The notes beneath the pieces are model-generated. The model was not told the DNA's origin. It searched no databases and was given only the letters and a program-made list of their open reading frames with translations. Shown here in pieces: positions 7,401 through 63,928 of a stretch of DNA of 64,000 nt. The stretch comes from Isoetes taiwanensis (Eukaryota; Streptophyta; Lycopodiopsida; Isoetales; Isoetaceae): the NCBI GenBank assembly GCA_021234155.1, contig JAJEKV010000124.1, positions 682,001 to 746,000 on the forward strand, written 5' to 3'. The number at the start of each line of letters is the position of its first letter. The stretch's first letter is position 1. The position numbers were made by a program, and so were the translations under genes.

Positions 7401-8665
7401 CTTAAGGCTAATTTTGAAAGGAGGGAATTTTTTGGGAATAAATCCACCAGATGTATTGCTATCTGGGGCCTTCATAGCAATAGGAAGAGTAGGGTTAACA
7501 ATACCGGAGGGGTTTATCGTGGATTGTGGTTCTTGAGCAATTTCTTTTGGTGCTGAGGTCTCTCCCAAAGTAGCAATGGGCTTCACACTCTTTTTCTTGG
7601 CCACGGCTCTTAGCCAATTGGTGTCCATCACGGAGGGCATCTTCGTCCCCGAACCGCTTTCAAGGCACGGCTTCGGAGGCTTCTTGTGCGTAGACAAACC
7701 ATTTCGCATGTCGAGAACCCGAGCAATATATGTCTCGTTTCCCTTTATACCGACAAAAGAGAGATTCATAGGATGGCAACAACCAGCCATACCCTTAGCC
7801 GACGTCGGGGACGTTTTTTCCCAATGGGTCGGGCTTGTTCATTTTTTGTTTGTCATCAAAGACGGGTCATAATTGCGCCATTTCAAAATGTACTCTTAAA
7901 CCGCAATGCTTGTGGGTCCTCAATCGCATATGATGGCATCTTGCACATTGTTCTTCGTGCTTTCCCACATTGCCACCACTATGCCAACTTGTTCAACGTC
8001 CTCGGCTTTTTTCCGGTCTTGTAAACGAGCCTGTGTCCTTTCTGCGATCACCCTTAATGTGCGGTATTTTTCATTGGAAGGGGTTATAATACGGACTGGC
8101 TCGACATCTGGTCCTCAGAAGAGAGCAAGTGCTGTAAACAAAAGCCTGTAGTGAGTGCCTGGTAGGCTGCATAATGTGGTGCAATAAAGAGGTTTAAACT
8201 ACTGTAGAGAAACGCGACCGCGATCCTGCCAAGCAGCTAAAATAGAACTCCACACAATCGCGGCCGCGACTTTGTGTAGCACTTAAGCACGGCAAGAAAA
8301 CATCGATGTCGCGAAATATTCTGACCTACTACACTAGTACTGATGAACATCGCAATAAAGAAAATCTATGCTCAGCCAGACCGCGACCGCGATCTTGATG
8401 AGCAGCTACACTTATGAAGACCGCTATCTGGAAATTATAAAACCAATCAAGCAAGACCGCGGCCGCGATCTTGATGAGCAGCTACACTTATGAAGAACGC
8501 TATCTAGAAATTATAAAACCTATCAAGCAAGACAGCGACCGCGATCTTGCTGAGCATCTATACTTGTGAAAACAATAGAAGTTCTAGTAGGCAAGATCGC
8601 GGCCGCGATCTTGCTGAGCTGAAATGTTAGAACATACATTCTCTGACGGAGTCCTTAGGTGCCAT
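4437..8665 (-). pseudogene. ParB-like / DNA amino-methyltransferase fusion, decayed
   Basis: Exon 1 (8665-8638) encodes MAPKDSVRE and ends at a GTATGT donor. The next exon begins after TTTTGTTTACAG at 8131 and runs, with stops, to 7026, where a 67-bp GT-AG intron (7025-6959) follows. The text across that intron looks like a ParB N-terminal domain: NDHVQTLVKSFKTYP, then about 6922-6874 GKKFYIISGNHSICAA, matching the family's IIdGnHR..Aa. Further on, 5883-5842 reads LIFIDIRGINKVWD, in the place of a DPPY motif IV, and 5348-5264 reads VVFDFFLTGAASRVAL followed by FES, in the place of motif I (FxGxGs). That order (IV before I) is the beta class of N4-cytosine/N6-adenine methyltransferases, which in phages and plasmids are often fused to ParB. 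A Glu-rich helical tail with repeated H-M-x-x-D units follows. Both catalytic motifs are altered and there are several frameshifts (about 7075, 6700, 5350) and stops. Confidence 0.6.
8213..8614. repeat. Unit-0 palindrome cluster in the first intron
   Basis: Six copies of a GC-rich palindrome lie inside the first intron (8637-8132) of the ParB/methyltransferase-like gene: about 8213-8228, 8257-8270, 8378-8398, 8451-8474, 8527-8550 and 8591-8614. The last is a perfect 24-bp palindrome with half-site GCAAGATCGCGG. The others keep the centre GCGGCCGC or GCGACCGC. Copies from 8378 onward sit in a 76-bp tandem repeat (starts 8378, 8454, 8530) that also repeats GATGAGCAGCTACACTTATG. Confidence 0.85.
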
Positions 8666-9700
8666 GGGATCGCGGGCGCTGGTTCAGTACGAAATATGGG
8701 TTTTTTTGGAGTGGGTCGGGGAGCGCTCGGAGGTCGAAGGCGCTAGGCGCTGAATGAAATCGCGGAGTAGAAATTAGTTTTTGAATGTTTTGGGTTTCAA
8801 TTTATAGAACGCGGCCGCGGAAATTAAATGCCCGCCCCTCATGATGGCGCGTGAAAAAACGTGCCAGCCATAATGGCGTCGTACGCCGGCAGTAATAATT
8901 ACCGGCCGGCCGCCCGTATTTATTCCCTGACATTAATGCGGTCGTGCGAATATACCCGTCCGGAAAGGCCAGTAACCCGTACGAAAGGTCTTTATCCACT
9001 TAGACGTCCGCGTTCAATTTCGGGTCATAATTTCGGACCTGACACTTTATCCAGCCATAAATGCCTCCAAAATATCCGGTTTACGGACGGACAGCGACTG
9101 CAAAATTTGAATTCGAGAACAAACCAATTCGAGAAAGCGGGAAAAGCCAATTCAAATTTCATTGTTTTGCAAGATCTTCGAGGCGCTGGAGCTGCGCCTA
9201 AGCTGGGCCAAGTTTGGGCAAGGATTTGCTGCAGAATTCCGCATCCATTGAAGGCGCTGACGAGGGCGCTGATAATCCGCTTGCAATCCGCCACTACACA
9301 CTCGGAATTCTGCAACTGCATCGAATTCAGGGTTTCTCCCGAGGTAAAAGGCCTATTCTGATGCATATCCCTCACTGAAGTGAACTGTACGTATCAGCAA
9401 TGCACTGAATTTCAATTATAACTGCAACCTCCGAGTCTCTGCACTAACATTCACTATGTATTGCATGGATTGATAAGATACCTCCTGATACTTTGTTGCA
9501 ACTATGTAAAAATAGATGTTCTAAGCAAAACTGTGCACTCTGGTGTGTTTATTATACAATGTAAACGTGTTTCAAGTATATACTTTCTTTCTCTATGTGA
9601 ATGAAACTAAACACTGTTTTTATGACACTAAACACCGTATTCTGTGAGGTAGGAGTAATGCCGTATTCTGTAAGTCTATCGTTTAACTTTGATGCTCCAC
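8666..9700 (-). promoter_or_regulatory. 5' region of the ParB/methyltransferase-like gene
   Basis: This stretch is upstream of the start codon at 8665. It is GC-rich with several GGCGCT motifs and contains stretches such as GCGGCCGCGGAAATT. A similar GGCGCT/GAGCGCC-rich upstream region precedes the exon at 63598 in unit 2, which suggests a shared promoter architecture. Open frames here (8861-9361 and its antisense) overlap each other and look spurious. From about 9380 to 9700 the sequence is AT-rich without a supported gene. Confidence 0.45.
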
Positions 9701-9993
9701 GAGATCGCGGTCGCGATACCTTCAACCATCTACACTTGCTATTGACCAAAGAAAACCCAGATATCGATAACTTAGAGTTGAACCCACTAGCTAGCCTCGA
9801 AATTTGATTTGCACGAGTTCTTATTGAAACAGCTAGTGTGAATGCTTGCAACTAGCGCGACCGCGTTCTTACCCATGCTCGATAAGATCGCGGTGGCGAA
9901 TGTCGTGACCATTTCTTATTTTTCAGTTCATATTTTTGGTAGTGGTTTATGATCACAGTGTTTTCTGCTCACTAGGATCGCGGCCGCGCTATT
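9701..9993. repeat. Unit-0 palindromes upstream of the DUF8039-DUF7869 gene
   Basis: Degenerate copies of the GATCGCGGCCGCGATC core lie at 9701-9720, 9855-9871, 9881-9900 and 9974-9993. They precede the coding part of the + strand gene that starts near 10017. ATGCCGTATTCT followed by GTAAGT at 9659-9676 could be its first exon and donor, which would place the palindromes in its first intron as in other genes of the window. That exon call is tentative. Confidence 0.7.
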
Positions 9994-10016
9994 CACGACC
10001 TCTTGTTTGGAGGATG

Positions 10017-13000
10017 GCTGATGTAATTCCGCTGTATATGCTGGGGAAAAAGGTGGCAGAAGGAAGAGTCCACAATTTCGAGCGCCATCACAACCGGACG
10101 GTCGGGAGGGTATGGTTGTCGCTTCGATTGTGAATGTTCCGATGGATACATTCGCTACCAATTCCCGAATTGGAAATAGAAAAAATGGGTGAAGCTGTGG
10201 GGACTTTTGTGTTGTGGTACAAGAAGGACATTGTTGCTCCACTAGATAGACATGAGGAAGCTTGCACCCCACCAGGTCAGATAAAAAGGATAGACTGGCA
10301 GGACAGAGGGAATGAGGGGTTAGCCACTAATGAGACGACTCATGTGCAAGGGCTTTCTAGAGATGAATTAGTTGAGAAGGCGTGCACACTCATGCATGAA
10401 TGCTGCTACATGGCTTATGCCTATGGTGTTATCGTTTTTGCCGATCCAAACCATGCTGTGTCTGACGTGAAGTTAGGGGAAGGCTCGATAGCTGCTACTA
10501 TCATGAACATTTTTCCAATGCCTGAAAAGATCTCTATATTGTTGCCAGGGCACGCGCGTAAATGCCCCAACTGCATGACCTTGTGAGATGGCCCATAGCC
10601 CTCGTGCTCGTTGATAACATTCCAGTTTCTACTCTTGTGGTTGCGGTGAAGGAGAAGGATGTGGAGAATGAACCTTACTCCATTAGACCCGAAGTTGGCA
10701 TCACCAAAAAGAGACCTTACAAAGATGGTCAATTTTGGAGACCCGAACACGCCCAAAGACGGACTAAATGTGAAAAAAAACTAGTGCTGAGGCTATTCTA
10801 GACTTCAGGTCATCACTGTGCTGCATGAAACGATGTTGTGCAAATTTTACATCCCAGGAGATAGCTTGCATGAGAACCTTTTACTGGAACATGAAGTCCT
10901 CGGAGCGCACAACTTTTGCATATAACATGCTAGATCTTTGCTCTGAAAATGGTGTAGTCCGCAAACTGATGTTGAATAACAAACAGGTGTGCGTGAAAGC
11001 ATGGCATAAAGCCTATGGCATTCCCATTTCCACTTTTTACAAGTGGAAGAAGCTCTTCAATGACGGCCACAGAATTGCTGAGCACGGAAATACTGGGTCT
11101 AAGCCAAGGTCTCATACTTTTACCGGCAATGCCGCGGCTATCCATGTTCATAGACGAAAAACGCAAAGACGATGCCACACCGCTCGAAAATTACGAGCGA
11201 GGGTAACAGACAAAATGTTAAGAGGCTACCTTCGGTCTTGACTAAGAAGGATATACACCAAGAAGTAGATATTTCCGTTACAGAGATGGAGGCAAGCATA
11301 TTTCTCCTTCGTCATTTAAATGCGCTTGGAAAGAGAATCATTTGAGGTAGCAATAGCTAAGAGGATAGCATTTTCCAAGTGTAACACCTGTATTGTCATA
11401 AAGGAAAAGCTTGCTAAGACCAGAGATCCAAACGAAAGAAGGGTACTTGCAATAGAGAGAAAATCACATATGACGGCCCAGATTTCATGCAGGAGCCTTT
11501 ACTGGTCCTGGAGAGCTTTGTCGCATAGATCTCCTGAGCACGCTTTAACCATTATACATGATAAGATGGATCAGAATAAGACCATGGTCCCTCGTCTAGA
11601 GAAGCTAGCAAAGTCTGTATGGAGGGGTGAACGACTGAAGGTCAGTGTTACAGGTGCTCTCATGCACGGCCATGGTATAGGTGCCTTGGGCCACTTCTCA
11701 CTGGACCTCTGGCCTGATGATTCTAATTTTCATGTGGGATCCTTGAATCATACCTTGAAGACACTGGAGAATAAATCTGAGGATAATTGGGGCCATTTGA
11801 GAGATACTGATCGTCCTGAAAGCAGCTGGGGTGCAGCAATTTTAAACACAGATAACCTTAGGACAAAAATGATGAATGGCAGTAGAAATGATTTTATGCC
11901 TCCTATCAAAGGCCCCATGGTAGCGAACAAGTTGCCTAGGAGGCTTTACTTGCAGCTAGATAATTGCTCAGGTCAGAATAAGATTAGATATCTTTTCTCT
12001 TACTTGTCATACTTGGTTTGGTTAGGTGTATTTGATCAAGTGCGGTTTGGGATTCATGATGGTTGGACACACCCACGATGACATAGATGCCCTATTTGGA
12101 AACTACTCTACTCTAATGAGAAGATCAGATGCATTGACTATTCCGGAGCTTATGCAACTCTTCAGGCAGTGTAGTTCAAAGGCTCCTTCACCTTACCTTG
12201 TGACAGAGGTTCCTGATTGGAAGGAATTCGTGAAAGGATTTATCCCTGATAAGAAGGACCGTTTATGTGGTCACTTGGAACCTCTACTCTTCAAGTTTTG
12301 CATGAAGGATGGATGGCCACTAATGTTCTACAAGATGAGGCGGGGCATAGGGAGTGGCTCCCCGAAAAGGGAATCAGAATGTGGAAGGAGGATGCCCAAG
12401 GTTTACCTATGATTAGGGAGAGGGTCACCTAAGGTCCTGCAGCCATATGGGAGCTTGAAAGATATAGGTGCATTAAGAGCTTCTATTGCCAAGTACATGA
12501 TGCACTGGGCAGCTATTTCTAGAGCTGGCGATAAGTCATGGTCCAACACATATATGAATGAAGTTATTGACTACTGGTCCACCTTTTTCGCTGCGAAGTG
12601 CTAGGTGACGTGCAGCCAGAGAGAGTTGTCATTCAGGATTTCGGCCAAAGCACTGAGGCAAAGTGCATTGGAAGAACCCGAAAGAGTGTTTGTGGATGAG
12701 CACATTGAAGCATCTCATTACGTAGGGCCTTTCGGGTAGACCCAAGAACCCGGTTGAAATATTCGACCCCTACCAAGATGTCAAGAAGGGAATGCTCTTG
12801 CTAATCGGACCACATGATAAGCGCCCAACATGGATGGCTTTTTGCGAACAGACCCAAAGAGAGGACCCTAATCTCCCACATTATGAAGAGGTGTTTGTCT
12901 CTTGGTTTGAACCTCGCTGCCGGAAAGGGAACCTCATATGCAATGCAGTATAGGGATTGTTGGAGCAAGAATTGGAGACCCAATCCTAATGACCCGCCAC

Positions 13001-13140
13001 GCTACCAACCTTTGAAAACAATAGACTATGGTTGGGCCGTAGAGACCAGGCCATTGTCAGTGGTGATCCCCAGTAGTGTTCGGGCTCAGTTGCAAGAATT
13101 AGTGGCTAAAGAAGCTAAGGATGATGATGAGAACTCTTGA
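10017..13140 (+). pseudogene. DUF8039-DUF7869 transposon-type protein, copy 1
   Basis: The N-terminal part (about 10017-10260) reads VIPLYMLGKKVAEGRVHNF, VNVPMDTF and LPIPELEIEKMGEAVGTFVL across two frameshifts, which is the DUF8039 pattern ending in AVGTFVxW. Near 10980-11110 follow VCVKAWHKAYGIPISTFYKW and EHGNTGSK, a helix-turn-helix-like block. From 11320 come FSKCNTCIVIKEKL, HDKMDQ, LDLWPDDSNFHVGSL, LQLDNCSGQNK (about 11950) and, after a frameshift near 12040, VGHTHDDIDALFGNY. This is the DUF7869 signature. The tail keeps WRPNPNDPPRY near 12970. The conserved Asp and His residues suggest a nuclease or transposase fold, but that is inference. Stops near 10586, 11241, 12412 and elsewhere make it a pseudogene. 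It converges on the small gene at 13279-13521, as its paralogue does on the small gene at 50803. Confidence 0.75.
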
Positions 13141-13278
13141 GGTATGCAATGCTCTTTTACATAATTACTATATCATTCATAACATGAAAGTTACAATAGA
13201 CTAGTTATTATTTGTTACGCTCTGCGTTTTCCATCTCAACACAAGAGCTCTTACACTATACAATGCTAAACAGGTGAT

Positions 13279-13521
13279 TCATTCACCTTCAGGATCTGTA
13301 GTAGTGATCCCTGATATCTCATAGCTCATTTGCTCAGGAAGCCAAATCAGATGGATCATTACACGAATTGACGCAGGGCAATGAATCTCAGCGCCCAAAG
13401 CTTTTCTTCGCAGGTAGGGATCAAGAAGAAGATGCCTGTCTAGGCAACCAACAAGATCAGAGTGGCTCATTGAGCACTTGATCGCCTCGATTTGGTGAAT
13501 TGAGGAAGGCAAATAATCCAT
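13279..13521 (-). CDS. Small conserved-family protein (CxM..DLxxC), copy 1
   Basis: This 80-residue intact frame belongs to a family with five members in the window (also 13942, 19031, 19424, 50803). It reads IEAIKCSMSHSDLVGC, LLLDPYLRRKALG and IRVMIHLIWLPEQMSYEI. The shared pattern is I-x-C-x-M-x-x-x-D/N-L/F-x-x-C, then a (L/M)DPWL-like element, then RVxIHL...PERQxYEIxxIT. I do not recognise a known domain and assign no function. The next copy lies upstream on the same strand and carries a similar promoter (TTTTATAGTGA.GTA.AATTATTGA), so the two arose by tandem duplication. Its 3' end faces the DUF7869 gene. Confidence 0.65.
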   Translation of the reverse strand: MDYLPSSIHQIEAIKCSMSHSDLVGCLDRHLLLDPYLRRKALGAEIHCPASIRVMIHLIWLPEQMSYEISGITTTDPEGE

Positions 13522-13941
13522 GTGAGAGGAATGAACTTTAGCCCCGAAGTGAGATGCTTTTATAGTGAGGTAGAATTATTGAGGTGAATCATTGGGGTAG
13601 ACTTCGGCGCCATTATTGCTCGTGTATAAGACCGTTGTATAAATACAAGTATAATACATCTTTCGTATGGATATATGTATGCGTACTAATATGCGTATGT
13701 TTCAAAACATGTTTGTTTTGACCTAATTTAGCTATGATTGAATTCAATGACAGCTTGCAGAATAAGTGGAGGTGGGATAGCACATCGTTACAATATACTC
13801 AGTTAAGGTACGTGATATTACATCCTTAATCAGAATGCTATTACATCCTTACTTAATTATTAGGTACCCATGTCATTATTACATTATTAGCAGGTGCAGA
13901 TTCACTGGTCATCAACATCAAAGCTCGTGGATGCCATTCAC

Positions 13942-14142
13942 TCATAGATCTCCGATCGGGAAGCCGTAAATATGGACTTTAACGCGAGTGAGCTTCCTGC
14001 AAGCACTAGCAGGTCCATCAGCTTTAGATAAGAGCCATGGATCAAGCTTAACGCTATTTCTAGCGCATTCACCCAGATCGTTGTAGCTCAAGTAACACTT
14101 GAAAGAGCGGATGTGCTCTGGACGAGGCATCGAGGAAGCCAT
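13942..14142 (-). pseudogene. Small conserved-family protein, truncated copy 2
   Basis: The frame starts MASSMPRPEHIRSFKCYLSY and keeps NDLGECA, VKLDPWL and LTRVKVHIYGFP. It then stops where the other members continue into PERQxYEINxIT. Downstream bases still encode fragments of that tail (VNGIH) past the stop, so a small indel or stop has cut it short. The promoter-like sequence at about 14160-14345 resembles 13555-13740 of copy 1, which shows that the duplication included the upstream region. Confidence 0.6.
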
Positions 14143-14366
14143 GGAAGATGAATGGCCTCTACCCCCTCGTGAAGCCGTTTTTATAGTGAAGTAAAATTAT
14201 TGAAGTGAATTATTGGTGTACGATGTAGGACCATTATTGAGCTTATACGAGTGTCATGTACACGTACAAGTATAACACAAAATTTGTATGTATATGTGTA
14301 TGTTAATTACCTCATGTTTGTTGGGGTCGAGTACTAGGTGAAAGTATTCGTGCTTGAGCAAATAAG

Positions 14367-14868
14367 TTGTGCTCAAAATTCTCAAAATTGCGTTATTTTA
14401 TCCAATTAATGAAATCATGCTTAGTAGCAGTAACTGAATTCACGAAGTCGTTTATACAAGCATGGGGAGAATGCAATGTCACACATTACATTCATATACT
14501 TCACGCCCATGGCTTGTGGTTTGCCAAAGAGTACGGGAGCTTGGGAATATGGAATACGCAGGGAATGGGGAAGTCACATAAGCAAGCCAAGAATGCTTTT
14601 TTCAGGTTCACACAATATCGAGGTTCGTGTGGTAACTCATTGCAACAGATGTGACAATGGTTCTATAGAAGGATTATCTGCAAGCTAGAGAAAAAAGATA
14701 AAGCTAAACAAGACACGACGTTGGCTAGAATATTGAGGAGAAAAGTTGAGCAGGAAAAAAAGAAACAGATATGGTGTAGCTCTAGTGCAGCAGACAAGTT
14801 AAGGCAGTGGCGATCCACAAGGATCAGACAGGGTAGAAGATATACTTCTGGGGAATCAATTGTATGAA
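14367..14868 (+). pseudogene. C-terminal remnant of a CPYC-type gene
   Basis: The piece reads FIQAWGECNVTHYIHILHAH, GLWFAKEYGSLGIWNTQGMG and FFRFTQYRG, then shifts frame into a Lys/Arg-rich tail (RRKVEQEKKKQIW). The YIHIL..H and yG.l...qg.. blocks are familiar from the C-terminal end of large repeat-associated uncharacterised proteins, the kind represented by the gene at 1888-4086, whose own end is missing. I infer a broken 3' fragment. Nothing N-terminal is found upstream. Confidence 0.45.
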
Positions 14869-14937
14869 TAAATTCATATTAATGTATAACTATTGACCAT
14901 GATGTGCAACTATAATGTTTCAAATATGTTAGGTTGG

Positions 14938-15127
14938 CAGCGTGGGCACGGTGCGAACTTAGTTGGTATTCAATTGCTGAATGACAAGTATTCGCACCGT
15001 GGCCACGGTGCGAATGAAGTTGGGAATTAGTTATAGATTAACTGCTATTCGCACCGTGGCCACGGTGCGAAAGCATTTGGTTTCCGTGGCTATCTTTTGC
15101 CGTTTTCGCACGGTAGCAACGGTACTC
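14938..15127. repeat. Unit-1 palindromes upstream of the histone-fold gene
   Basis: Two perfect 24-bp palindromes with half-site TTCGCACCGTGG lie at 14991-15014 and 15048-15071. They are flanked by degenerate copies at about 14938-14957 and 15102-15127. They sit just before a probable 3' splice site (TTGTTGCATTACAG ending near 15232), so they would lie in a 5' intron of the next gene. Confidence 0.9.
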
Positions 15128-15242
15128 TTTATATAATTATCTTTGTTATCGATGTTGTCTGCTTTTGATATTTGTTCTAAGTCATTACATTGCATATTTA
15201 TCAATCTTGTCCACTCATTTGTTGCATTACAGTTCAGAGACA

Positions 15243-16571
15243 ATGGCACAGAATAGCGGTAATGCCGGATCTAACAATCCCAACAACCAAAGAACAGAAG
15301 AGAAGGCGCCGTCTGGGCGCACACATCATGGTGAAGACAGCGAGGGCAGCGCCACTAACTATGTCAGTGCTTCTAACAACCAGAACAGAGCACCGTCTTC
15401 CGAGCCAGAAAACATCCATCAAGCAGGTCTGGACGCTGTAGTTCAGAATGTTGCCAATGACGCAGAGGAGATTTTTAGAGACATACCTTCCGAGCCAAGG
15501 CGTGTTTACCTGTTCTCTTCTGGCCATTTAGTCGGAGAAGGAACCTTCGTGCAGGCAGCTGTCTGTCATGGAGTTCCTGTGCCTGATGATTGCATCGTCG
15601 TTAACGTCGATGTGGTAGTTGCACCAGACACGACGTTGCCTGTTCCTTCGATGGGAGCTGACACCTTGCTTGAGGCACTCCATTCCTTCGTCGTGTGGCC
15701 CAGGTTGATGGCTTCTTTGACGCCAACTCCTAACACATTCTCTGTACTGGCTAATGAGATAGATTACATAACCGGACTTCCTCGTAGAGTGCCGGAAGTT
15801 GGATTGGTGGAGATAAACCAGGGGCCAGACTTGCTTGGAGCCGACAATGAGAATGCTAAGCCCCATGAGGATGACCATCAGGATGTGCATGTCCAGGATG
15901 TTCCTGTTGCTGATGTGCCTGTCCAGAACGTTCCTATTGCTGTTCAGGCAGTTTTTGAACCCCTGAATGTTATGTACCAGGGTGTCCCTATCCAGGTCCC
16001 TGTGACAGCTCAAATAGAAGAAAATATCGTTCTACAAGAGGCAGCTGCAGTACCTGTGACGGTTGTGCCTGAAACCGTAGTACCAGATGCAGTAGTGGTT
16101 CCTGTTGATGAGCAGCCTGTAGTCGCGGAATCCAGTAGACGTAAGAGGAAGACTAAGCCTAAGCAGCTGCAGAAGAAATAGGTTCTCTGTAAAGGCCCTC
16201 CTAAGCGGAATAAGAAGGGCCAGCCGTTTAATCAAAAGTTAAGATGGATGCGCGAAATCCGGCACTTCCAGAACCACGTGGAGTGGGTGCTTCCGAAGCT
16301 CACAATGGCTAGAATATGTAAGGAGGTGCTTCAGGAGAGATACAATAAGATGAAGAGGGATGGTGCAAGGTACCGGAGTGCTGGTTACAATTTTCCAATG
16401 CCAGAAGAGGTGACTCGATTCACTGCAGATGCCCTTGATGCTCTGCACGAGGCCGCTGAGAATCACATGGTCAGGTTCTTCGAAGACTGTGTGAAGTGTG
16501 CTGTGCATTCCAAGAGAGTGACAATAATGAGGCAGGATATTGCCTTGACAAATTACTTCCGAGGCATGTAA
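15243..16571 (+). CDS. DUF8039-histone H3-fold fusion protein
   Basis: The start at 15243 (GACAATGGC) has a good plant context and follows a likely 3' splice site. Residues about 75-160 read RRVYLFSSGHLVGEGTF, GVPVPDDCIVVNVDVVV, LPVPSMGADTLLEA and FVVWPRL, the DUF8039 pattern. A Val/Pro/Asp-rich linker and a basic stretch (SRRKRKTKPK) follow. The C-terminus reads MREIRHFQNHVEWVLPKL, then ALDALHEAAENHMVRFFED and CAVHSKRVTIMRQDIALTN, which aligns with the histone H3 fold (REIR.YQ, LQEA.EA.LV..FED, CAIHAKRVTIM..DI.LA). There are about 20 extra residues in loop 1, and the canonical H3 tail is absent; CENH3-like variants also have long loops and divergent tails. One in-frame TAG at 16179 separates the parts. 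A 54-bp GT-AG segment (16141-16194) would remove it in frame. Otherwise it is a nonsense mutation or readthrough site. Confidence 0.75.
16141..16194 (+). other. Candidate 54-bp intron removing the in-frame TAG
   Basis: The segment begins GTAAGAGG and ends GTAAAG. Its length is a multiple of three, so removal keeps the frame and joins the DUF8039 part to the H3 fold without the TAG at 16179-16181. Introns of 56 bp (1897-1952) and 61 bp (20638-20698) elsewhere make such a short intron possible. The weak pyrimidine tract argues against it. Confidence 0.35.
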
Positions 16572-16660
16572 AGTGTTTTATATTAATGAAACGATCTTTA
16601 TTGTATATTTTGTTTGCTTGCTAAGTATTTTGGTTGTATCTATTCTCTATGTATACTTAC

Positions 16661-16798: not shown

Positions 16799-16854
16799 AT
16801 TGAATCATTCCATAGAAGGTGAACCACAAGATCAAAGTGAGCATATTAACATGT

Positions 16855-17760: not shown

Positions 17761-17834
17761 CCAAAGACCAAGAAGTGAAAGCAAGGTGAAAACATGGAAC
17801 AAAGGTGAGAAGTGAAAGAAAGCTGAAAGAATTT

Positions 17835-17940: not shown

Positions 17941-17979
17941 GGTGGTGGTAACAAAACGGGATCTGCGTACTGAAGTGAT

Positions 17980-49774: not shown

Positions 49775-49778
49775 GTTA

Positions 49779-50314: not shown

Positions 50315-50319
50315 TTGCA

Positions 50320-52742: not shown

Positions 52743-55700
52743 GGAATGCCAAAATTACCCTATGGACTAAGTTACATGTCGGGTTTTGCAAAAAACGACA
52801 CACACTTACGCCCCACATTGCAAAAGATTCAGCGCCCACCTCCTAGGCCAATTGACTATGAGTGTGTTGCACATGAGATAGTTTGGCGCTTCTTCGAGAA
52901 GGGGTGGCCTTCTGGCCACAAAACTTGGTCCCTAGGGCAATGTCGACGTTCTGCGTCCATTGGCAGAGCCGAATCACGGTTCCGGAGAGGGACTTTTGGG
53001 GCAAGCCGCTTAGGGTGGTTTTAGGGTCCGTGCTCACGGCGCCAACACCCCCCTCTACGCCAAGACACGGCGCCAAGGTCCTAGTCGAATCTGAAAAGGA
53101 TAGAGCCTCAAACGTAAACCCTATGAGTTGCCGTGTTCTAGCGGGGGTTTGCGTTTTGGGTGCCGAAGTTTTGGATAAGGTTTAGATCAAATAGTTTGCA
53201 CTAGAGCGGTCCCGGACACTTGTTGTTGGGCGCCGAGAGCTGGCACACTTGCCCAAGTCAAACAAGGCCAGGACCTTGCAAGGCCTCCTCATTAGAGGGG
53301 AGAGTCCGAACCCGGGAGGCGAGCCCCAAAAAGCTTCCCGAGGCAGCCTTTCTGGCGGCGGCAAATAAGCCGGCCGGGGCGACGCTAAAGACCACACTCC
53401 CGGATCTCGGTTCCCGTGATCCCACCCGTTGAATCCTTTGTTCCGGGAACCTGGTCCGAGAAGGTCAAAAACTCCAACATCCGTCAGGGACAACATATCA
53501 AACGCCAAGCGCCCTTCAGGCGACAGTGTAGAAACCAAAGTGTTTTGTCGTTCGGACATTGCGGAGGCTCCGAAATGCCGATCCGACTTCGCCACATCGT
53601 CCGGAATGCCAAAATTACCCTAGGGACCAAGTTACACGGTCAGTTTTGCAAAAGAAAGAAACACTTACGCCCTACATTGCAAAAGATTGGCAGCCCACCT
53701 CCTAGGCCAATTGACTACGAGTGTGTTGCACATGAGATAATTTGGCGCTTCTTCGAGAAGGGGTGGGCTTCTGGCCACAAAACTTGGTCCCTAGGGCAAT
53801 AACGACGTTCTGAGTCCATTGGCAGAGACAGATCACGGTTCCGGAGAGGGGAAGTTGCCCGTCCGTCGCCAGGGCCTTTGGGAGAGGACTTTTGGGGCAA
53901 GCTGCTTCCGGGTGGTTTTTAGGGTCCGTGCTCTGGCGTCAACACCCCCCCTCTACGTCAAGACACGGCGCAAGGTCCTAGTCAAATCTGACAAGCATAG
54001 AGCCTCCGAAACGTAAACCCTATGAGTTGCCAGGTTCTAGCAGGGTTTGCGTTTTGGGTGCCGAGTTTTGGTCTTTTGCACTTGGGACGTGGCCAATCAC
54101 ATGCAGTTGAGAACGCGAAGCAAGGGGAACTGACGGAATGGAGTTTGGACCTGTACTCCTCCCGTTGTGGCAGTTAGAAGTCAAGGCCCGCTTTTGCAGT
54201 AGCAAGACATTCGTAAATTCGTAATTAATGCATAGTACGGACTTAAATTCTGATTTTTTGTCAGCTAGCATCCTAAGTCATCGCCAACATACAGGCCAAC
54301 TTTCAAAAATTTTGGATATGGTTTAGATCAAATAGTTTGCACTAGAACGGTCCAGGGAAGCTTTGTTGTTGGGCAGCCCGAGCTGGCACACTTGCCCAAG
54401 TCAAACAAGGCCGGGACCTTGCAAGGCCTCCTCATTAGAGGGGAGAGTCCGAACCCGTGAGGCGAGCCCCAAAAAGCTTTCGAGGCAGCCTTTCCGGCGG
54501 TAGCTCCGACGGGGGCGACGCTAAAGACCACACTCCGGATCTCTGGTTCGTGTATCCGGCCGTTGAATCCTTTGTTCGGGGAACCTGGTCCGAGAAGGTC
54601 CAAAAATCCAACATCCATCCAGGAGAACATATCAAACCGCTGAAGCCCTGCGGCGACAACGTAGAAACCAAAGTGTTTTGTCGTTCGGACATTGCGAGGT
54701 TCTCGAAATGCCGAACCGACTTCACCACATCGTCCCAGGAATGCCAAAATTACCCTAGGGACCAAGTTATACGGTCAGTTTTGCAAAAGAAACAAACACT
54801 TACGCCTACATTGCAGTATTCAGCAGCCACCTCCTAGGCCAATTGACTACGAGTGTGTTGCACATGAGATAGTTTGGCGCTTCTTCGAGAAGGGGTGGGC
54901 TTCTGGCCACAAAACTTGGTCCCTAGGGCAATGTCGACGTTCCGAGTCCATTGGCGAGAGCAGATCACTGGTTCGGAGAGGGGAAGTTGCCGTCCGCCGC
55001 CGTGGCCTTTGGGAGAGGAATTTTCCGGGCAAGCTGCCCGGGTGGTTTTAGGGTCCGTGCTTTCTGGCGTCAACACCCCCTCTACATCAAGACCGCTGTA
55101 AGGTCCTAGTCAAATCGACAAGGATAGAGCCTCAAACGTAAAACCCTATGAGTTGCGTGTTCTAGCGGGGTTTTGCGTTTTGGGTGCCGAGTTTTGGTCT
55201 TTTGCACTTGGGACGTGGCCAATCACATGCAGTTGAGAACGCGAAGCAAGGGGAACTGACGGAATGGAGTTTGGACCTGTACTCCTCCCGTTGTGGCAGT
55301 TAGAAGTCAAGGCCCGCTTTGCGCAAAGTAGCAAGACATTAAAGTAAATTAAGTAATTAATGCATAGTACAGACTTAAATTCTGATTTTTTGTCAGCTAG
55401 CATCCTAAGTCATCGCCAACATACAGGCCAACTTTCAAAAATTTTGGATATGGTTTAGATCAAATAGTTTGCACTAGAACGGTCCGGGAAGCCTGTTGTT
55501 GGGCAGCCGAGCTGGCACACTTGCCCAAGTCAAACAAGGCCAGGACCTTGCAAGGCCTCCTCATTAGAGGGGAGAGTCCGAACCCCAGGAGGCGAGCCCC
55601 AAAAAGCTTCTCGAGGCAGCCTTTCCTGGCAGCGCTCCGCCGGGGGGGCGTACGCTAAAGACCACACTCCCGGATCTCGGTTCCCGTATCCGACCGTTGA

Positions 55701-57712
55701 ATCCTTTGTTCCAGGAACCTGGTCCGAGAAGGTCCAAAAAAATCGAACATCCATCCGGGAGAACATATCAAACCGCGAAGCGTCCTGCGGGCGACAGCGT
55801 AGAAACCAAAGTGTTTTGTCGTTCGGACATTGCGGAGGCTCCGAAATGCCGAACCGACTTCACCACATCGTCCGGAATGCCAAAATTACCCTAGGGACCA
55901 AGTTATACGGTCAGTTTTGCAAAAGAAACAAACACTTACGCCCTACATTGCAGTATTCAGCAGCCACCTCCTAGGCCAATTGACTACGAGTGTGTTGCAC
56001 ATGAGATAGTTTGGCGCTTCTTCGAGAAGGGGTGGGGCCGGCCACAAAACTTGGTCCCTAGGGCAATGTCGACGCTCGAGTCCATTGGCGAGAGCGGATC
56101 ACGGTTCGAGGAGAGGGGAAGGTTGCCCGTCCGCCGCCGTGGCCTTTGGGAGAGGAATTTTGGGGCAAGCTGCTTCCGGGTGGTTTTTAGGGTCCGTGCT
56201 CTGGCGTCAACACCCCCCCTCTACATCAAGACACGGCGCAAGGTCCTAGTCAAATCTGACAAGAATAGAGCCTCAAAGCGTAAACCCTATGAGTTGCGAG
56301 GTTCTAGCGGGGTTTTGCGTTTTGGGTGCCGTAGTTTTGGTCTTTTTGCACTTGGGACGTGGCCGATCACATGCGATTGAGAACGAAGCAAGGGGCCCGG
56401 CCGGAATGGAGTTTGGACCTGTACTCCTCCGTTGTGGCGGTTAGAAGTCAGGGGCGCTTTGCGGTAGCAAGACATTCGTAAATTCGTAATTAATGCATAG
56501 TAACGGACTTAAATTCTGATTTTTGTCAGCTAGCTTCCTAAGTCATCGCCAACATCTGAGGCCAACTTTCAAAAATTTTGGATAAGGTTTAGATCAAATA
56601 GTTTGCACTAGAACATCCGAGGCAGCCTGTTGTTGGGCAGATGAGCTGGCACACTTGCCCAAGTCAAACAAGGCCAGGACCTTGCAAGGCCTCCTCATTA
56701 GAGGGGAGAGTCCGAACCCCAGGAGGCGAGCCCCAAAAAGCTTCCCGAGGCAGCCTTTCCTGGCGGCAGCGCTCCGCCGGGGGGGTGTACGCGTTAAAGA
56801 CCACACTCCCGGATCTCGGTTCCCGTATCCGACCGTTGAATCCTTTGTTCCAGGAACCTGGTCCGAGAAGGTCCAAAAAAATCCAACATCCGTCCGGGGA
56901 GAACATATCAAACCGCATGGCGCCCCTGCGGGCGACAGTGTAGAAACCAAAGTGTTTTGTCGTTCGGACATTGCGGAGGCTCCGAAATGCCGATCCGACT
57001 TCGCCACATCGTCCGGAATGCCAAAATTACCCTAGGGACCAAGTTACACGGTCAGTTTTGCAAAAGAAAGAAACACTTACGCCCTACATTGCAAAGAAGA
57101 TTGGCAGCCCACCTCCTAGGCCAATTGACTACGAGTGTGTTGCAGCACATGAGATAGTTTGGCGCTTCTTCGAGAAGGGGTGGGCTTACGGCCACAAAAC
57201 TTGGTCCCTAGGGCAATGTCGGCGCTCGAGTCCATTGGCGAGAGCGGATCACGCGGTTCCAAAAGGGGAAGTTGCCCGTCCGTCGCCCGGGGGCCTTTGG
57301 GAGAGGACTTTTGGGGCAAGCCGCCGGGGTGGTTTTTAGGGTCCGTGCTCACGGTGTCAACACCCCCTACGTCAAGGGCGGCGCAAGGTCCTAGTCAAAT
57401 CTGACAAGCATAGAGCCTCCGAAACGTAAACCCTATGAGTTGCCAGGTTCTAGCAGGGTTTGCGTTTTGGGTGCCGAGTTTTGGTCTTTTCCACTTGGAA
57501 CCTGGCCAATCACATGCGATTGAGAAGCCAAGCAAGGGGAAGGACAGCGGAATGGAGTTTGGACTGTACTCCTCCCGTTGTGGCAGTTAGAAGTCAAGGC
57601 CCGCTTTTGCAGTAGCAAGACATTCGTAAATTCGTAATTAATGCATAGTACGGACTTAAATTCTGATTTTTTGTCAGCTAGCATCCTAAGTCATCGCCAA
57701 CATACAGGCATG
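52743..57712. repeat. 1.14-kb satellite array inside the CACTA element
   Basis: Copies begin at GGAATGCCAAAATTACCCTA: 52743, 53602, 54738, 55874 and 57014. Full copies are 1136-1140 bp. The first lacks about 275 bp and the last stops at about 57712. Each unit contains CCTCCTAGGCCAATTGACTA, AAAACTTGGTCCCTAGGGCA, GTAAACCCTATGAGTTGC and AAGGCCTCCTCATTAGAGGG. Open frames within the copies repeat from unit to unit and shift between copies, so I treat them as non-coding. Confidence 0.92.
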
Positions 57713-58047
57713 TTGAGATAAACTACATCTTCGCATGTTGGTAGGGTATTAGTTCTCATAGCAGGGGACAAAATTAAAAAAAATATATATATGTCGTCGT
57801 AACAATGTTTAACACGTAGCTATTGGTAAGGTATTAGTTATCGTAAGGGTAAGGTATTACTAGTTATCATCATCGATTATATACCTCATAGCTCAACGGA
57901 TGTACCACAAAACATTGAACATTTTCATGGTGGTATATTTCATAACTTTGCTTGGTGTAGCAAGTCAAATAAACCCCTATCCATGTTAAATAAACCCATG
58001 CATTCTATCAAAAAAAAAAAAAAAAAAAAAAATTTTTTTTTTTTTTT

Positions 58048-58145
58048 TGGTCGTCGTAAAAAAAAAAAACGTCGTTACAAACGTCGTTCAACGACGTTTT
58101 TTGTCGTCGTTTAACGACGTCACGACGTCGTTAAACGACGACCTG
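58048..58145. repeat. Internal block of CACTA subterminal motifs
   Basis: Between poly-A/poly-T tracts (58012-58048) and unique sequence lies a block of ACGTCGTTCAACGACGT, GTCGTTTAACGAC and GACGTCGTTAAACGACGA. It looks like a second, inner terminus and suggests that the element is a composite of two CACTA copies or has an internal duplication. Confidence 0.6.
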
Positions 58146-58674
58146 TGATTTAAATCGAAAACAGGCGGCAATCCCGCCGCTTATTTTCGAGCAAGCAAAG
58201 CTTATGGAGGAGCGTTTTTGAGGCGATTTACCCCGGATCTACTTTGGGGTCTATTCTAAGTGTAAGACAAGCTTCATAAGGTATGTGTACGCGGATCAAC
58301 CAACTTCGTTTTTTGAATCTAAACTTGTTTTGGGTAGACTTAGGGCTTTTTGTATTTGTTGTTTGTTCTTCCTTCAACCTTCATTCTTCTTCTTCCATTC
58401 TTGCATCCTTCTTCCATACATATTCTTCCATTCCCTTTGTCATCTTCTTCTTCGATTCTTCCTCCTCTTATACTACTTCTTCCTCCTCTTATTCAAATTC
58501 TTACTCTTAATCCTCCTCTTGCGCTTCATCTTCTTCGTATTCTTCCTCCCCATTTTCGGGTTCCTCCTCTTCTTCTTAGCCTTTTCTTCTTCGGAATTCT
58601 TCCATTCTTCTTCTAATTTTTTTCCCATCTAAGAAGACGTCGTTAAAAAAGGCGAGACCCTTCTTCTTTCCAAA

Positions 58675-59035
58675 ATTTTTCCTTATTAGTTGTTTTATAC
58701 TATTTCTTTCTAATCATTGAATTTTTTGTTTTGCATGTACACTCCTAGCAAAATGTGTTGTTCTTGCAAAACAAGTTGGCACCTCTTCCAGGTAAGGATT
58801 TAATTTTTTCAATACGCTAATAAAATACTAATGCTTTATTTAGGTTAAATTGTTATCCAAGAAGGGGACGTCATTGAAACCACCCCTCCCCCATTGATTT
58901 TCCATATTTTTTTTTCCTTTAAGTTGTTTATTTATACTAATATTTTACTAATCATTGAATTTATTGTTTTGCATGTACTCTCTAGCAAATCGCGTTGTTT
59001 GTGCAAAACAACTTTGCCCTTTGTACCAGGTAAGC
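58675..59035 (+). repeat. Duplicated splice-flanked micro-exon
   Basis: Two copies of a segment of about 240 bp carry TTTTGCATGTAC..TCTAG, then about 46 bp (CAAAATGTGTTGTTCTTGCA in copy 1), then CAGGTAAG. The pieces look like 3' splice site, micro-exon and 5' splice site at about 58750-58795 and 58985-59030. This may be the remains of a spliced leader of a CACTA transposase gene. The CT-rich stretch before it (58380-58630) is low-complexity. Confidence 0.45.
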
Positions 59036-59276
59036 ATTTAATTTTCAATATGCTTAATGTATTGATTAATGTATTTAGCTTAATTTATTGATTAATGTAT
59101 TTAGCTAAAAAATGGGGGCTTCATTTATTTTTGTATTTTTTAATATATTTAAAAGCGACATCATTTAATGACGTTAAAATCTTATATTTCTTTATTGGTT
59201 AAATTCATTTTATAGGCTTTAAATTAAATGTATTAACTTCATTCATAATAAATGTATTATTATTATTTTTTTCAAT

Positions 59277-59322
<46 letters not shown>

Positions 59323-59354
59323 AAAAAAAAAAAATTTAAAATTTTTTTAATACA

Positions 59355-59754
59355 CGTAACAACGTCGTTAACGGCGTTTTTACGGGTCGCCACGTCGACA
59401 ATTTTGTATTTACCGCAACGCCGTATTTGCCGCCGGCCGTGGGGTCGCGATATGCGTGGACGTCGTTTAACGACGTCAAACACCGTTCGCGCCACGCCGG
59501 CTCTTCTTTCGCCGACGCATTCGCTGGCCGCGGCGGCGGTGGCGCCCGCCAATGCGTGGCGTCGTTGAACGACGTCACGTCGTCGCTTTAAGACGACGCC
59601 GTTGCGACGCGTATAGCGACGCGTCCACGTCGTAAAACGACGTGCAGACGTCGTTATAGGCGTCGTTCATCGACTTTTTGGCGTCGTTCATCGACGTTCA
59701 AACGACGTCTGGACGTCGTAATAGACGTCGTAACAGGGCAATTTTTTTGTAGTG
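59355..59754. repeat. CACTA right terminal and subterminal repeats
   Basis: Repeated ACGTCGTT and AACGACGT motifs, inverted relative to the left end, following a long poly-A tract (about 59280-59319). Confidence 0.85.
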
Positions 59755-62067
59755 CAAGTAAAGCAACTCAGGCAAAGTTAGAGCATCCGATGAAGTCACT
59801 AATGTCGAAAAGTTCCCAAACAATGCATCAATATCGTCATGAGTATGCCCAACCATCATGAAACCAACCTGAATCTCATCGAATACCTTAAACCATGTCA
59901 AATAAGAGAGGTAGGAGAACACATATCTATTTGTATTTTGACCTGATGCATTATCCAACTGTAAGTAGAGATTTCGAGGAAGAGGATTGAAGCCTTCTAA
60001 GTAGGCACTAGAAGATCAAGGCATCATCTCTTGTGTCTGCGCTAGCTTATGCCGCAGTGGTCGAGTATCTTTTAGGGCTTGCATCAATTTGCAATCTGTA
60101 GTTCTGCTTCCACACAGATCACCACACTTGTCTTCTTCCGGCAACTCAAGATAGTGTAGGATCCTAGAAAGTGATCCAACATGAAAGTTTGAGTCATCTT
60201 TCCAAAGATCAAGAGAGAAATGGCCATAAGCCCGTCCACCATGACCATGTGTCGATGCTCCTGTCAAGCTGCTCTTCAAGCGATCTCCTCTCCAAACAGA
60301 CTTTGCGAGTTGGTGACTTCTTGGTGTGAGTGTTTTGACCTGATCCATCTTATCATGTATTATGCAAAGGTGACTTTCTGGCGAACGATGTGATAATGCA
60401 CGCAATATTGACTCCTACAGGAACGTTGTTCCAACATATGTGCCCGGCGTTGAATTGAAAGGTTGCGCCTCTCCCTTGTATCTTTTGTTCTTTCCAATTT
60501 CTGCTTGATGACTACACATATGTTACGCTTGGAGAATGCTATATTTTTGGTTATGCTGATGTCTGGAAACTCTTTCTTCCAAATATTGTAAAAAGAGGGC
60601 AAGGTTACACTCTTTCCTGTCAATTCTTCCGCCACGGCACCCACTTCCTTATGTATGCTCTTCTTATTAAGGATGGAAGGAAGTTTGCGAACATTCTCCC
60701 TTATATCATCCTTTCCTTTTTTGCTTCTATGTGGAATGCTCTCTGCATTCTCATTAATGAAGGTATCAATCACACTTTCTGTAGCTAGTATCACAGATCT
60801 AGGCTTCTTAGAGCCTGTATTACCATGCTCCGCCCGTTTTCCACCTAACTCGAACCTCTTCCTCCAACTATAAAATGTAGACTGAGCAACTCCTAAAGCC
60901 ACGCGCCATGCGAATTGACAACACTCCACTCCAGAGACCACTACTTTTGCCTCCGACTGCCCTGTATAAGTTACACTCAATACATAAAAAACAAGCGTAA
61001 TCCTGGCACTGCCTGATTGAGAATAAAATTCTTTTCTTAAGGCACATACTTGCTCTCGGCTCAGTTTTTTGACACATTCGTCCTTGCAGCATGTTGATTT
61101 TAGAGCACTCTTGATTGACTTGGAAGCGCACATCCTCTCCTCCTTGCTATCCCCCTTTGGTTCCCTCCTGACCCTCTTCACATACGTATATTTCCTTTTC
61201 CTCTTGAATTGCTTCTCAACATTAGCTTCCAAGCACTCAACTTCTAAGTCATCCTGTTCGAGAGCAGCTCGAGCTTGTAAATGTTGTGAAACTGTCCTAC
61301 CATCATGAAGCAAAACATCATGGGTCTCCCAGGTTACTAGACTGTTAGCTAGAGGCCTCTCAGCACAAGCATGACATGACCTGATATTTTAGTTTCCCGT
61401 TGGATCTATTATGTTACCCACTGAAAGCCCGACCTTTGATACATCCAAGAACTCATCGTCTATAGCATCCTGAGGACCACTAAAGACTATATTCGCCTCC
61501 AAATATTTAGATCCAATGCAGGAGTGAAGAATGTAGCATGGCAAACCAAGTAGATCTGTTCTGGAGTAGCTAGATTCTCATGACCTCCAATCTCCTCTAC
61601 TATCTCATCTTCTTCATTTGTTGTTGTGTTGCTTGGTTCACCACAGTGAGCAGTGAAACTCATGTCCGGCGGGCTACTGACAGATGGTGGACTACTAGAT
61701 GAATCCTCTTCTGAAGAGGGCAAATTGAGGGATGTCGAAGACGTATCTTCACTTGAGGTGCACTCAACATGTTTTACATCCCTCTTAGGCCACTGAATGA
61801 ATGTGCCTACTGCTTCACCAATGTTATCTGCCCCTCCGCAGGGGACTGGAAGCTCCGTCGATGGGATCACGGACTCCGTGACCTCAATTGCTACATTTAA
61901 AGGATCTGTTATGAAGAGTGGTTCTATTCAAAATATGGCCCCGGGCAACAATTGTCTTTCCGACGAATAGGTTGTACAGGGGAAAATTGAACCTGTTTCA
62001 ATCAAGCAAGGCGACACTTTTTAGAACATATGAATTAGACGAAAAATAAGCAATAAACAAGCAAAAA

Positions 62068-62410
62068 TGGGGCCATTTAGTACAAAAGAATAAATATTGG
62101 TGTAAACTTGGAGCCAAATGGCATGGCCATTTGGTCGAAACGGTGAACACTTGGAACAAATGGCGCCATTTGTTTAAATTCACACCTATGGCACATTCAT
62201 AGGTATGAATTTGGAACAAATGGCGCCATGGCGCCATTTGATCCAAGTGCACCATTTCGACCAAATGGCCATGGCTCCATTTGGTTCCAAATTTACACCA
62301 TTTCGACCGTGCACCATTTTCAACCAAATGGCGTTATGGCGCCATTTAGACCAATACACCATTTTAGTGGTGTATTTGGAACAGAATGGCGCCCTGGCGC
62401 CATTTGATCC
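62068..62410. repeat. Unit-2 palindrome cluster in the first intron
   Basis: Seven or more copies of the CAAATGGCGCCA palindrome: 62217-62240 is a perfect 24-bp one. Variants lie near 62068-62080, 62112-62136, 62158-62173, 62262-62286, 62322-62347 and 62378-62406. All stand within the 665-bp first intron (62657-61993) of the DUF8039-DUF7869 gene copy 2. Confidence 0.88.
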
Positions 62411-62677: not shown

Positions 62678-63597
62678 AGTGGTATGTACTGGAGCAGTAG
62701 ATGGAACGGGAAAAACAAGTTGATCCCAGCAGATGAATTCGCAGAGAACTGAGCGCCAAGAAGAAAGCGTCAAGAATCACCTGGTATTTCTGTGAGCGCC
62801 AAGAAGAAAGCGCCTGATAGCACGCATGCGCCTTGCAAAGTTTCTGCCTAGGCGCCGGAGAAAAGAAGCGCGCCTTATGCGAGTGGCAGCTGAAACGAGC
62901 AGGCGGATTCGAAAGCGCCTGAACCGTGCAGAAAACGTCTGCGTCGTGCCATGGTCGCTTTAAGAGGGAGAACGGCGACAAAGAGGGAGCTTTAAATGCA
63001 AAGTACAATTTTAAAAGCGGACGATTCAAATTTGGACAGGTGGCAGTCAAATTTCAATTTACGGGCGGGAATTTTGAATTTTATGTTAATTGCACAGGTG
63101 GCAAGTTTTCAAATTACGGGCGGGATTTTTGAATTTTATGTTCAAATTTGGGTGGGCGGGCGGGCGTTAGGGCGGGAGATATTCGAATTTGAAAATTCAA
63201 ATTTGGGGGTGCATGGGCGCCTGGACCGCTACGGGCATGGGTGGGCATGGGCGCTTGGACCGCCACGGGCATGGGCGGGCTTGGGCCGCTGGGCGGGCAT
63301 GGGCGCCTGGATAGCCACGGCTGTGGTACAGCAGACAGCCAGCGGCCAAAGTTAGTTATGCCTCATTGTTTTTCTGGAGGGCCTCATTTGTTTTTTCGTT
63401 TTCGATTCCAGCTCTCAGCGCCTCGACCTTAGCCACCAGTGCCCAGCGCCTACTCGCCAGTGCCTAGCGCCCAGCGCCTCGAGCAACCCTTTTTCGGCCT
63501 CTGTTTTCAGTGTTTTCTGGCGCCATTTCCCCACAGTTCAGCGCCTCACCCCATCAAGCTACACGCTAGTTTCCGGGCCAAATTCAAGGCGCTCGAA
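62678..63597. promoter_or_regulatory. Divergent promoter region of unit 2
   Basis: It lies between the - strand start at 62677 and the + strand start at 63598. GAGCGCCAAGAAGAAAGCG is repeated near 62751 and 62793. An AT-rich part repeats ACGGGCGGGAATTTTGAATT (about 63061 and 63117). A G-rich minisatellite (GGGCATGGGCGCCTGGACCG) spans 63150-63330. GGCGCT/AGCGCC motifs recall the region upstream of 8665. No gene is supported inside. Confidence 0.5.
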
Positions 63598-63664
63598 ATG
63601 GAAATCGACAATTCTGGAGCTCCTCAGAATGTGGAGACAGCGGCTAGCGCACCGCAAGGCACAG
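63598..63664 (+). CDS. First exon of a gene running off the window
   Basis: ATG at 63598 (GAAATGG) opens MEIDNSGAPQNVETAASAP and meets a GTATGT donor at 63665. Unit-2 palindromes then fill the intron, as in the other unit genes. The Asn/Ser/Ala/Pro-rich start recalls the beginning of the histone-fold protein (MAQNSGNAGSNNPNNQ), so it may be the unit-2 counterpart. That is a guess, as the rest is outside. Confidence 0.5.
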
Positions 63665-63695
63665 GTATGTCATCTACTTGCATTGTTTTGTTTGG

Positions 63696-63928
63696 TCTAA
63701 ATGGCGCCACCGCGCCATTTAGATGCCTGATAGCTTACTTTAGGGTCTTGTAGTTGACAAATAGCGCCATGGCCTGAGCTTACTTTAGGAGTCTATTAGC
63801 TTACTTTAGGATGCCTATTAGCTTACTTTAGGGTCTTATTGTTGCCAAATGGTGCCATGGCATCATTTGATATCTATTAGCTTACATTAGGGTCTTGTTG
63901 TTGGCAAATGGCGCCATGGCGCCATTTG
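63696..63928. repeat. Unit-2 palindromes in the intron after 63664
   Basis: Copies at 63696-63721, about 63750-63772, 63842-63866 and the perfect 24-bp palindrome 63905-63928. Between them GCTTACTTTAGG is repeated at least four times. Confidence 0.88.

Follow-up and report, generated by a model that had tools for sequence, protein, structure and literature searches.

Three mobile-element families of Isoetes taiwanensis carry arrays of long palindromes, each family with a sequence of its own

We analysed a stretch of 64,000 nucleotides from the lycopod Isoetes taiwanensis (contig JAJEKV010000124.1, positions 682,001 to 746,000; hereafter the window), in which an earlier note, made from the letters alone, had described three gene units, each with its own palindrome. 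The window holds members of three repeated mobile-element families, here called U0, U1 and U2 (Table 1), and each family carries an array of long palindromes with one private sequence, placed mostly in non-coding DNA, that is, between genes, in introns and in gene flanks. The proposal that each element version has its own palindrome is thereby borne out for three repeated families. The units are not arranged side by side, an arrangement that we rejected since U0 is inserted in U1, and U2 runs beyond position 64000 and thus past the end of the window.

Palindrome arrays and elements in the window

All six 24-bp palindromes named in the earlier note are perfect and lie where it had placed them. 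Two of them extend by one base per side to 26 bp (14990-15015 and 16717-16742), and the window holds two further palindromes of the same types, an 18-mer at 20060-20077 and a 20-mer at 62155-62174 (a poly-A/poly-T 32-mer at 58017 was excluded from the count). In 100 Markov copies of the 64-kb window, chance produced a mean of 0.2 palindromes of 18 bp and 0.02 of at least 20 bp, the shuffle controls here and below being first-order Markov copies rather than exact dinucleotide shuffles. Half-sites with at most two mismatches number 13 for U0, 21 for U1 and 23 for U2, against 2.5, 2.1 and 5.8 expected from 50 such copies, and 24-mers with at most seven mismatches number 7, 12 and 7, against 0.08, 0.02 and 0.2. 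The palindromes of the window are real and far above chance.

A common length of 24 bp, as had been claimed, describes the best copies only. We rejected it as a constant, given that only the middle of the palindrome is preserved at many U0 sites and that the number of repeat units varies in U2, whose palindromes have the form CAAA(TGGCGCCA)nTTTG with n from one to three: the 24-mer is CAAA(TGGCGCCA)2TTTG, the site at 62157 has one unit, and a site at 64300, in the adjoining 7 kb (locus L031), has three. Sites are grouped in arrays with family-specific steps. Within the three main U1 clusters of the window every step is exactly 57 bp despite differing spacers, and the U1 copy on contig C35 also keeps 57-bp steps, except for one of 56. 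The U2 step is 59 bp, with 58 and 60 also occurring in the window, and that of U0 is mostly 64 to 78 bp and once 46. Such arrays probably lengthen and are remodelled through tandem and inverted duplication.

U0 is a DNA transposon of 10,357 bp, as its inverted ends and target duplications indicate. Its terminal inverted repeats measure 19 bp, and target site duplications (TSDs) of 4 bp were found in the window copy (AGTA) and in two others (CCTT in L015, TTCC in L011). The left limit, at window position 4063-4068, was reached in 19 of 20 loci that we extended, and the right limit, 14422, in two. An empty site was seen on contig C35 (L032), where a U1 copy lacks U0, so that a DUF7869 match, inverted ends, a target duplication and an empty site, the marks of a DUF7869 transposon, are all present in U0.

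The same contig sets the left limit of U1. Window positions 1454-4065 and 14423-20150 match loci L032 and L033 of C35 in order with no U0 between them, window 3819-4065 corresponding to local 4773-5025 and 14423-14957 to local 5022-5553. C35 thus represents the empty site, so that U0 sits inside a U1 gene, which on C35 reads across it. On the right, matching to C35 stops at 20150 and gives no firm limit for U1. By eye, the left limit at 1454 begins with GTCATTAGAGG, and CTCTAATGA at 23690-23698 could be the right inverted end, with no clear target duplication there. Also by eye, sites in 21886-22028 look intermediate between the types of U0 and U1 (one of them reads TTCGCGACCGCGG) and may hint at how types change. 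U1 (16982-17937) and U2 (49775-50721) share, at 85% identity, a segment containing a small minus-strand gene, despite their differing palindromes; U1 sites flank the U1 copy of this segment, and its U2 copy has no sites nearby.

U2 is interrupted by other insertions. A CACTA element at about 52234-59754 lies within its DUF7869 gene, with ends CACTACAA...TTGTAGTG, a TSD of CAA and many ACGTCGTT repeats. A gypsy-like element at about 37618-49774 also breaks U2 (2.5-kb repeats 94.6% identical; flanking GTTAG), and a copia-like element occupies 28171-34190 (repeats 97.6% identical); both types were assigned by eye. Further U2 sites follow in L031 at 299-488, and this next 7 kb also contains a gene for a histone H3 fold, a homologue of the U0 minus gene and others of the U1 minus gene.

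Table 1. Features of the three element families in the window (window coordinates; H3, histone H3; HTH, helix-turn-helix; ORF, open reading frame)
Feature	Position	Strand	Remarks
U1 element	1454..20150		Extent matching the C35 copy; split by U0; probably continues to about 23.7 kb
U1 gene split by U0 (L_gene)	2474..4065	+	3' part resumes 14423-14864
U0 transposon	4066..14422		10,357 bp; inverted ends AAGCAYGAWTTCATTAATT; TSD AGTA at 4062-4065 and 14423-14426
U0 minus-strand gene, fragments	4440..8114	-	ORFs; frames broken in the window copy
U0-type site	4441..4464		Near the element's left end, at the 3' end of the minus gene
U0 palindrome array	8206..8614		Between divergent genes; 8206, 8252, 8375, 8451, 8527, 8591 (perfect 24-mer, 8591-8614)
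Second U0 cluster	9693..9995		Degenerate; about 9698, 9882, 9972; upstream of the plus gene or in its first intron
U0 transposase gene	10014..13137	+	DUF8039-like part, HTH-like part, DUF7869
U1 palindrome cluster A	14934..15128		14934, 14991, 15048, 15105; step 57
U1 DUF8039-like and H3 gene	15243..16568	+	H3 fold 16182-16568
U1 palindrome cluster B	16661..16798		3' of the H3 gene; 16661, 16718, 16775; step 57
Lone U1 site	17980..18003		3 mismatches
U1 palindrome cluster D	19943..20080		3' of the minus gene; 19943, 20000, 20057; step 57
U1 minus gene	20182..21723	-	3' part with a U2-flank homologue (U2_mB, 34%, 2.7e-10)
Degenerate U1-type site	22005..22028		Upstream of the minus gene; 6 mismatches
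U2 transposase gene	51319..61927	-	DUF8039-like, HTH-like, DUF7869; split by CACTA at about 52234-59754
U2 palindrome cluster A	62115..62407		62115 (19 bp), 62157 (16), 62217 (24), 62262 (22), 62325, 62383
U2 palindrome cluster B	63698..63928		63698, 63758 (degenerate), 63846, 63905 (perfect 24)

Palindrome types across the genome

Across the assembly (1,658,258,908 bases in 1110 contigs), the 24-mers with at most two mismatches occur at 368 places for U0, 1634 for U1 and 2498 for U2, and a reversed control gave 0. The U1 24-mer was absent from the general genome-contig and viral-contig collections that we searched. Palindromes and genes were checked together at tens of these hundreds to thousands of places. 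All 20 U0 places extended to 10 kb carry parts of both the plus gene (counted as DUF8039-like, HTH-like or DUF7869) and the minus gene, on both sides. At both extended U2 places (L034 and L035, each 5 kb) U2 sites occur together with the DUF8039-like part and fragments of the minus-gene homologue, and U1 genes are present at the single U1 place that was extended, on C35. Among the shorter loci, three of the four for U0 (L001-L004) coincide in place with L005-L007, and L003 alone has no protein match in its 3 kb. Three U1 loci hold the DUF8039-like-H3 gene (L025, L026, L027) and two hold small genes (L028, L029), and L030, a 3-kb U2 locus corresponding to a non-coding part of the element, shows no protein match. 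At most six mismatches being allowed, no U1 or U2 site was found in 24 U0 loci (21 distinct places), nor were foreign palindrome types found in the stretches from C35, L031, L034 and L035. The two outcomes that the earlier note had set against its own idea, palindromes standing without these genes and types mixing within one unit, were thus not encountered in the stretches checked.

Within U0, sites follow the non-coding DNA. In 21 U0 sequences, every locus having been selected for one exact site, we counted 155 core sites (at most two mismatches to a 14-bp core), of which 133 fall in the non-coding part of the elements (78.2 kb), 22 in the part masked as coding (111.9 kb) and 0 in 20.0 kb outside the element. 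Density is thus 8.5-fold lower in masked coding DNA, and the 22 sites there lie at the end of the minus gene (13), at a single place in the middle of it (8) or in L015 (1). The sites recur at about 0.4, 2.5, 4.1-4.5 and 5.6-5.9 kb into the element, near its left end, mid minus gene, in the intergenic array and just before the plus gene, respectively. The main arrays lie 4.1-5.9 kb inside the 10.4-kb element, and they are unlike its terminal repeats. Per-position base frequencies are no independent proof that the core is best kept, since the sites were selected by their core.

We further examined loci chosen blind to palindromes. A DUF7869 profile search of the genome gave 9902 first-look candidates, of which 150 were scored, all above the cut-off. 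Four loci were picked by differing alignment ranges and long frames, and 1.2 kb was read from each, about 1.3-2.5 kb upstream. All four contain palindromes of at least 16 bp: three in L036, twelve in L037, one in L038 and four in L039. Of 1000 Markov copies, 0, 0, 14 and 0, respectively, reached these numbers, L038 being the weak case. Two new types appeared, both known from these four loci only. One is GGTATAAATTTATACC and close forms in L036 and L037 (longest, GAGCGGTATAAATTTATACCGCTC, in L037), found in L038 as CTGTATAAATTTATACAG; the other is AAAGTGTATTCCGGAATACACTTT in L039, up to 34 bp. L037 and L038 share 93% DNA identity over 443 bp and form one lineage, so that the blind test covers two palindrome types in three lineages. 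At the start of L038 there is also a single AAATGGCGCCAT, which resembles a U2 unit (8 mismatches to the 24-mer) and possibly marks another element or arose by chance. The genes of these loci start with P-rich repeats (e.g., RLPPP). With palindromes in all four, family-private palindromes look like a habit of the DUF7869 superfamily, and in this respect the core idea of the earlier note stands and is wider than it was stated.

Candidate readers and rival explanations

The plus gene of U0 and its U2 counterpart encode DUF7869 proteins. DUF7869 matches in the window copy of U0 reach E 6e-19 and 1.1e-18 (68.8 and 68.0 bits; Pfam cut-off 26), the L014 copy scores 131.2 bits, and U2 matches at E 5.2e-28; longer natural open frames of the U0 plus gene occur in L014, L016 and L024. 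Beside DUF7869, HTH-like matches fall under their Pfam cut-offs (HTH_23 in U0, E 0.0037; HTH_29 in U2, E 0.0029). In the scanned parts of the interrupted U1 L_gene, which is putatively transposase-like by resemblance, no Pfam match passed its cut-off and neither HTH nor DUF7869 was found.

A DUF8039-like part could be aligned by us across U0, U1 and U2. The DUF8039 and ParB labels of the earlier note were recognised by Pfam in none of the proteins scanned: DUF8039 gave no match at E<=10 in three window ORFs and none at E<=0.5 in L016 and L024, in a Pfam copy whose DUF8039 content was unchecked, and ParB gave none. A set of 5.8 billion proteins likewise held no match for U1 15117-16178 (E<=0.01) or U2 60363-61388 (E<=0.001). 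The minus gene of U0 and U2 has a putatively ParB-like stretch, which stands at the start of the U0 gene. The homologue of this gene in the U2 flank lies at L031:1014-3336, and the end of the U0 gene resembles N6/N4 methylases below the cut-off (N6_N4_Mtase, E 0.18, 12.2 bits in L021; cut-off 26.7). The methylase-like motif of this gene, which U0 and U2 share, reads LDFFSAGTASRVALMQGKKSVAFES in U0 copies; the usual catalytic DPPY motif is not apparent, so the methylase may be inactive. No match to this gene was found in U1 (the window outside U0, and C35), and the ParB-like or methylase-like gene, one of the readers that had been proposed, therefore cannot serve all three families. The other, the DUF8039-like domain, is indeed common to all three, a distinction that it shares equally with small proteins of about 85 aa (13300-14196, 19012-19705 and 50800-51039; 22-48% identical; no Pfam match).

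U1 and U2 encode divergent H3 histones. In U1 one gene fuses the DUF8039-like domain with a histone H3 fold (Pfam Histone, 1.2e-18, 67.9 bits; Protein Data Bank (PDB) H3, 2.5e-13). In the window copy a TAG at 16179-16181 separates the two parts; CAG replaces it in L025, L026 and L027, so that they stand in one frame there, the joint being open in 3/3 and breaks lying elsewhere. U2 has a separate H3 gene at L031:3958-4395 (Pfam, 1.2e-15, 58.3 bits; PDB H3, 2.5e-15), and the H3 parts of U1 and U2 are 33% identical. A weak H3-like frame at L029:1795-2094 on the minus strand (Pfam Histone E 0.25) is suggestive only.

With moderate confidence we favour the explanation that the palindromes mark large mobile elements by family, each family with its private type, and are read by an element-coded protein that acts on its own family. 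Each palindrome would be bound by an element-encoded protein of two-fold symmetry, and this reader would thereby act on its own family alone. Its likely task would be to keep element promoters open or regulated against host silencing, on the principle of the VANC proteins discussed below; such control of expression or silencing is likelier than end cutting because the U0 sites lie mostly in the interior of the element and do not resemble its terminal repeats. The DUF8039-like domain is the first candidate reader in all three families, judged from sequence, with further candidates in the shared small protein and in the HTH-like portion of the DUF7869 protein. In U1, where the candidate is fused to an H3 fold, the reader could mark the element's own chromatin. 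A broader version, in which lineage-private palindromic operators are paired across the superfamily with readers of their own, some of them H3-fused and writing a self-specific chromatin state, we offer only tentatively and consider rather doubtful.

Several results weigh against the favoured explanation. U0 sites show no clear excess conservation in the 21 sequences, some lying above and some below the local mean (the perfect site at 8591 being the selection criterion in this test), and conservation of U2 sites is likewise mixed, with no clear excess. No DUF8039-like match was found in the 1.2 kb read from each blind locus, and one of the three 16-bp palindromes of L036 is GGGATTAATTAATCCC rather than the L037 type. 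The DUF8039-like part is not the sole protein part that the three families share, given the small genes. Its structure model was unusable (AlphaFold, three rows; mean predicted local distance difference test, pLDDT, 39.9), and dN/dS (nonsynonymous to synonymous substitution ratio) among four U1 copies was 0.33-0.92 for H3 and 0.69-0.93 for the DUF8039-like part, reflecting mostly decay after insertion and too noisy to show constraint. Larger palindromes in which smaller ones are nested could, moreover, point to a mutational origin.

That last point leads to an explanation without a protein reader, in which fold-back or inverted-duplication mutation makes palindromes that are then carried along with each family. 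Oriented L037 162-460 pairs with itself at 96% and window 62098-62300, in the U2 region, at 78%; cluster A of U2 is strongly rearranged between copies, and the absence of clear excess conservation fits as well. We nonetheless judge it improbable, as a blind process would not be expected to give one sequence per family. Separate sites with one sequence recur at distant non-coding places of U0, their density is lower in masked coding DNA, and other parts of the window are nearly free of palindromes of at least 16 bp (1 in 13.4 kb and 0 in 12.2 kb of two other stretches; 2 in the 7.5-kb CACTA element, one of them poly-A/poly-T). Less probable still, to the point of being remote, is reading by host proteins, with the palindromes as promoter elements or nuclei of silencing: the sites do lie at promoters and in introns, and the cores of U0 and U1 are CG-rich, yet at least five sequences occur in one genome, where a single sequence common to all would be expected of a host factor.

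A stronger competitor, unlikely in our view but deserving weight, is that the palindromes serve as accessory sites for the transposase through its HTH-like part, either during transposition or to repress its own promoter, in the manner of CACTA subterminal repeats. HTH-like matches do stand beside DUF7869 in U0 and U2, the sites adjoin the transposase gene, and all four loci defined by DUF7869 have palindromes. The internal position of the main U0 arrays and their lack of likeness to the terminal repeats speak against it, as does U1, which has palindromes and yet no HTH or DUF7869 match in the scanned parts of its interrupted gene.

Comparison with known systems

Among plant transposons, VANDALs are Mutator-like, and En/Spm, a CACTA element, encodes TNPA, a protein binding 12-bp subterminal motifs that occur in direct and inverted copies. 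The palindromes resemble this system in their 12-bp unit and its direct and inverted copies. However, U0 has ends of AAGCAYGA and a 4-bp TSD where CACTA elements have CACTA ends and a 3-bp TSD, and its main arrays lie well inside the element, not in subterminal positions. U0 was rejected as a CACTA/TNPA system on these three counts.

An H3 sequence within a DNA transposon present in many copies has a parallel in hAT transposons of Dothideomycete fungi, which captured a host H3 gene and had copies inactivated by RIP (repeat-induced point mutation) (PMC6710886). In contrast to the hAT case, the H3 fold here is strongly diverged, occurs in two families and is fused to an element domain in U1. It raises the idea that a transposon supplies its own nucleosome part. 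Among the openly licensed PubMed Central papers searched, none contained the words DUF8039 or DUF7869, and broad searches of the same papers, judged by their listings, gave no resembling palindromic transposon motif.

The closest known idea is VANC/VANDAL anti-silencing in Arabidopsis, in which the targets of VANC are tandem repeats, specific to each family, that lie in introns and in intergenic and terminal non-coding DNA (PMC5735166). The families described here likewise carry family-specific motif arrays in element non-coding DNA, and they share with VANC/VANDAL the many motifs per element, turnover by tandem repeats and related elements with differing motifs; in the VANC system the reader is element-encoded. 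Unlike the palindromes of 14-34 bp found here, VANC motifs are short (YAGTATTAY; AGTTGTCC/AC), and arrays for VANC21 are one-oriented (PMC5735166). VANC proteins have DUF1985/DUF287 in that account, and neither was matched among the scanned ORFs, which are part of the ORFs of these elements. If the pairing of palindromes with their own readers is true, the 9902 first-look DUF7869 candidates would make one genome a large natural collection of matching protein-DNA pairs, and the sequence-specific recognition of their own kind by transposons, which is known from one group in Arabidopsis, would also have evolved with long palindromes.

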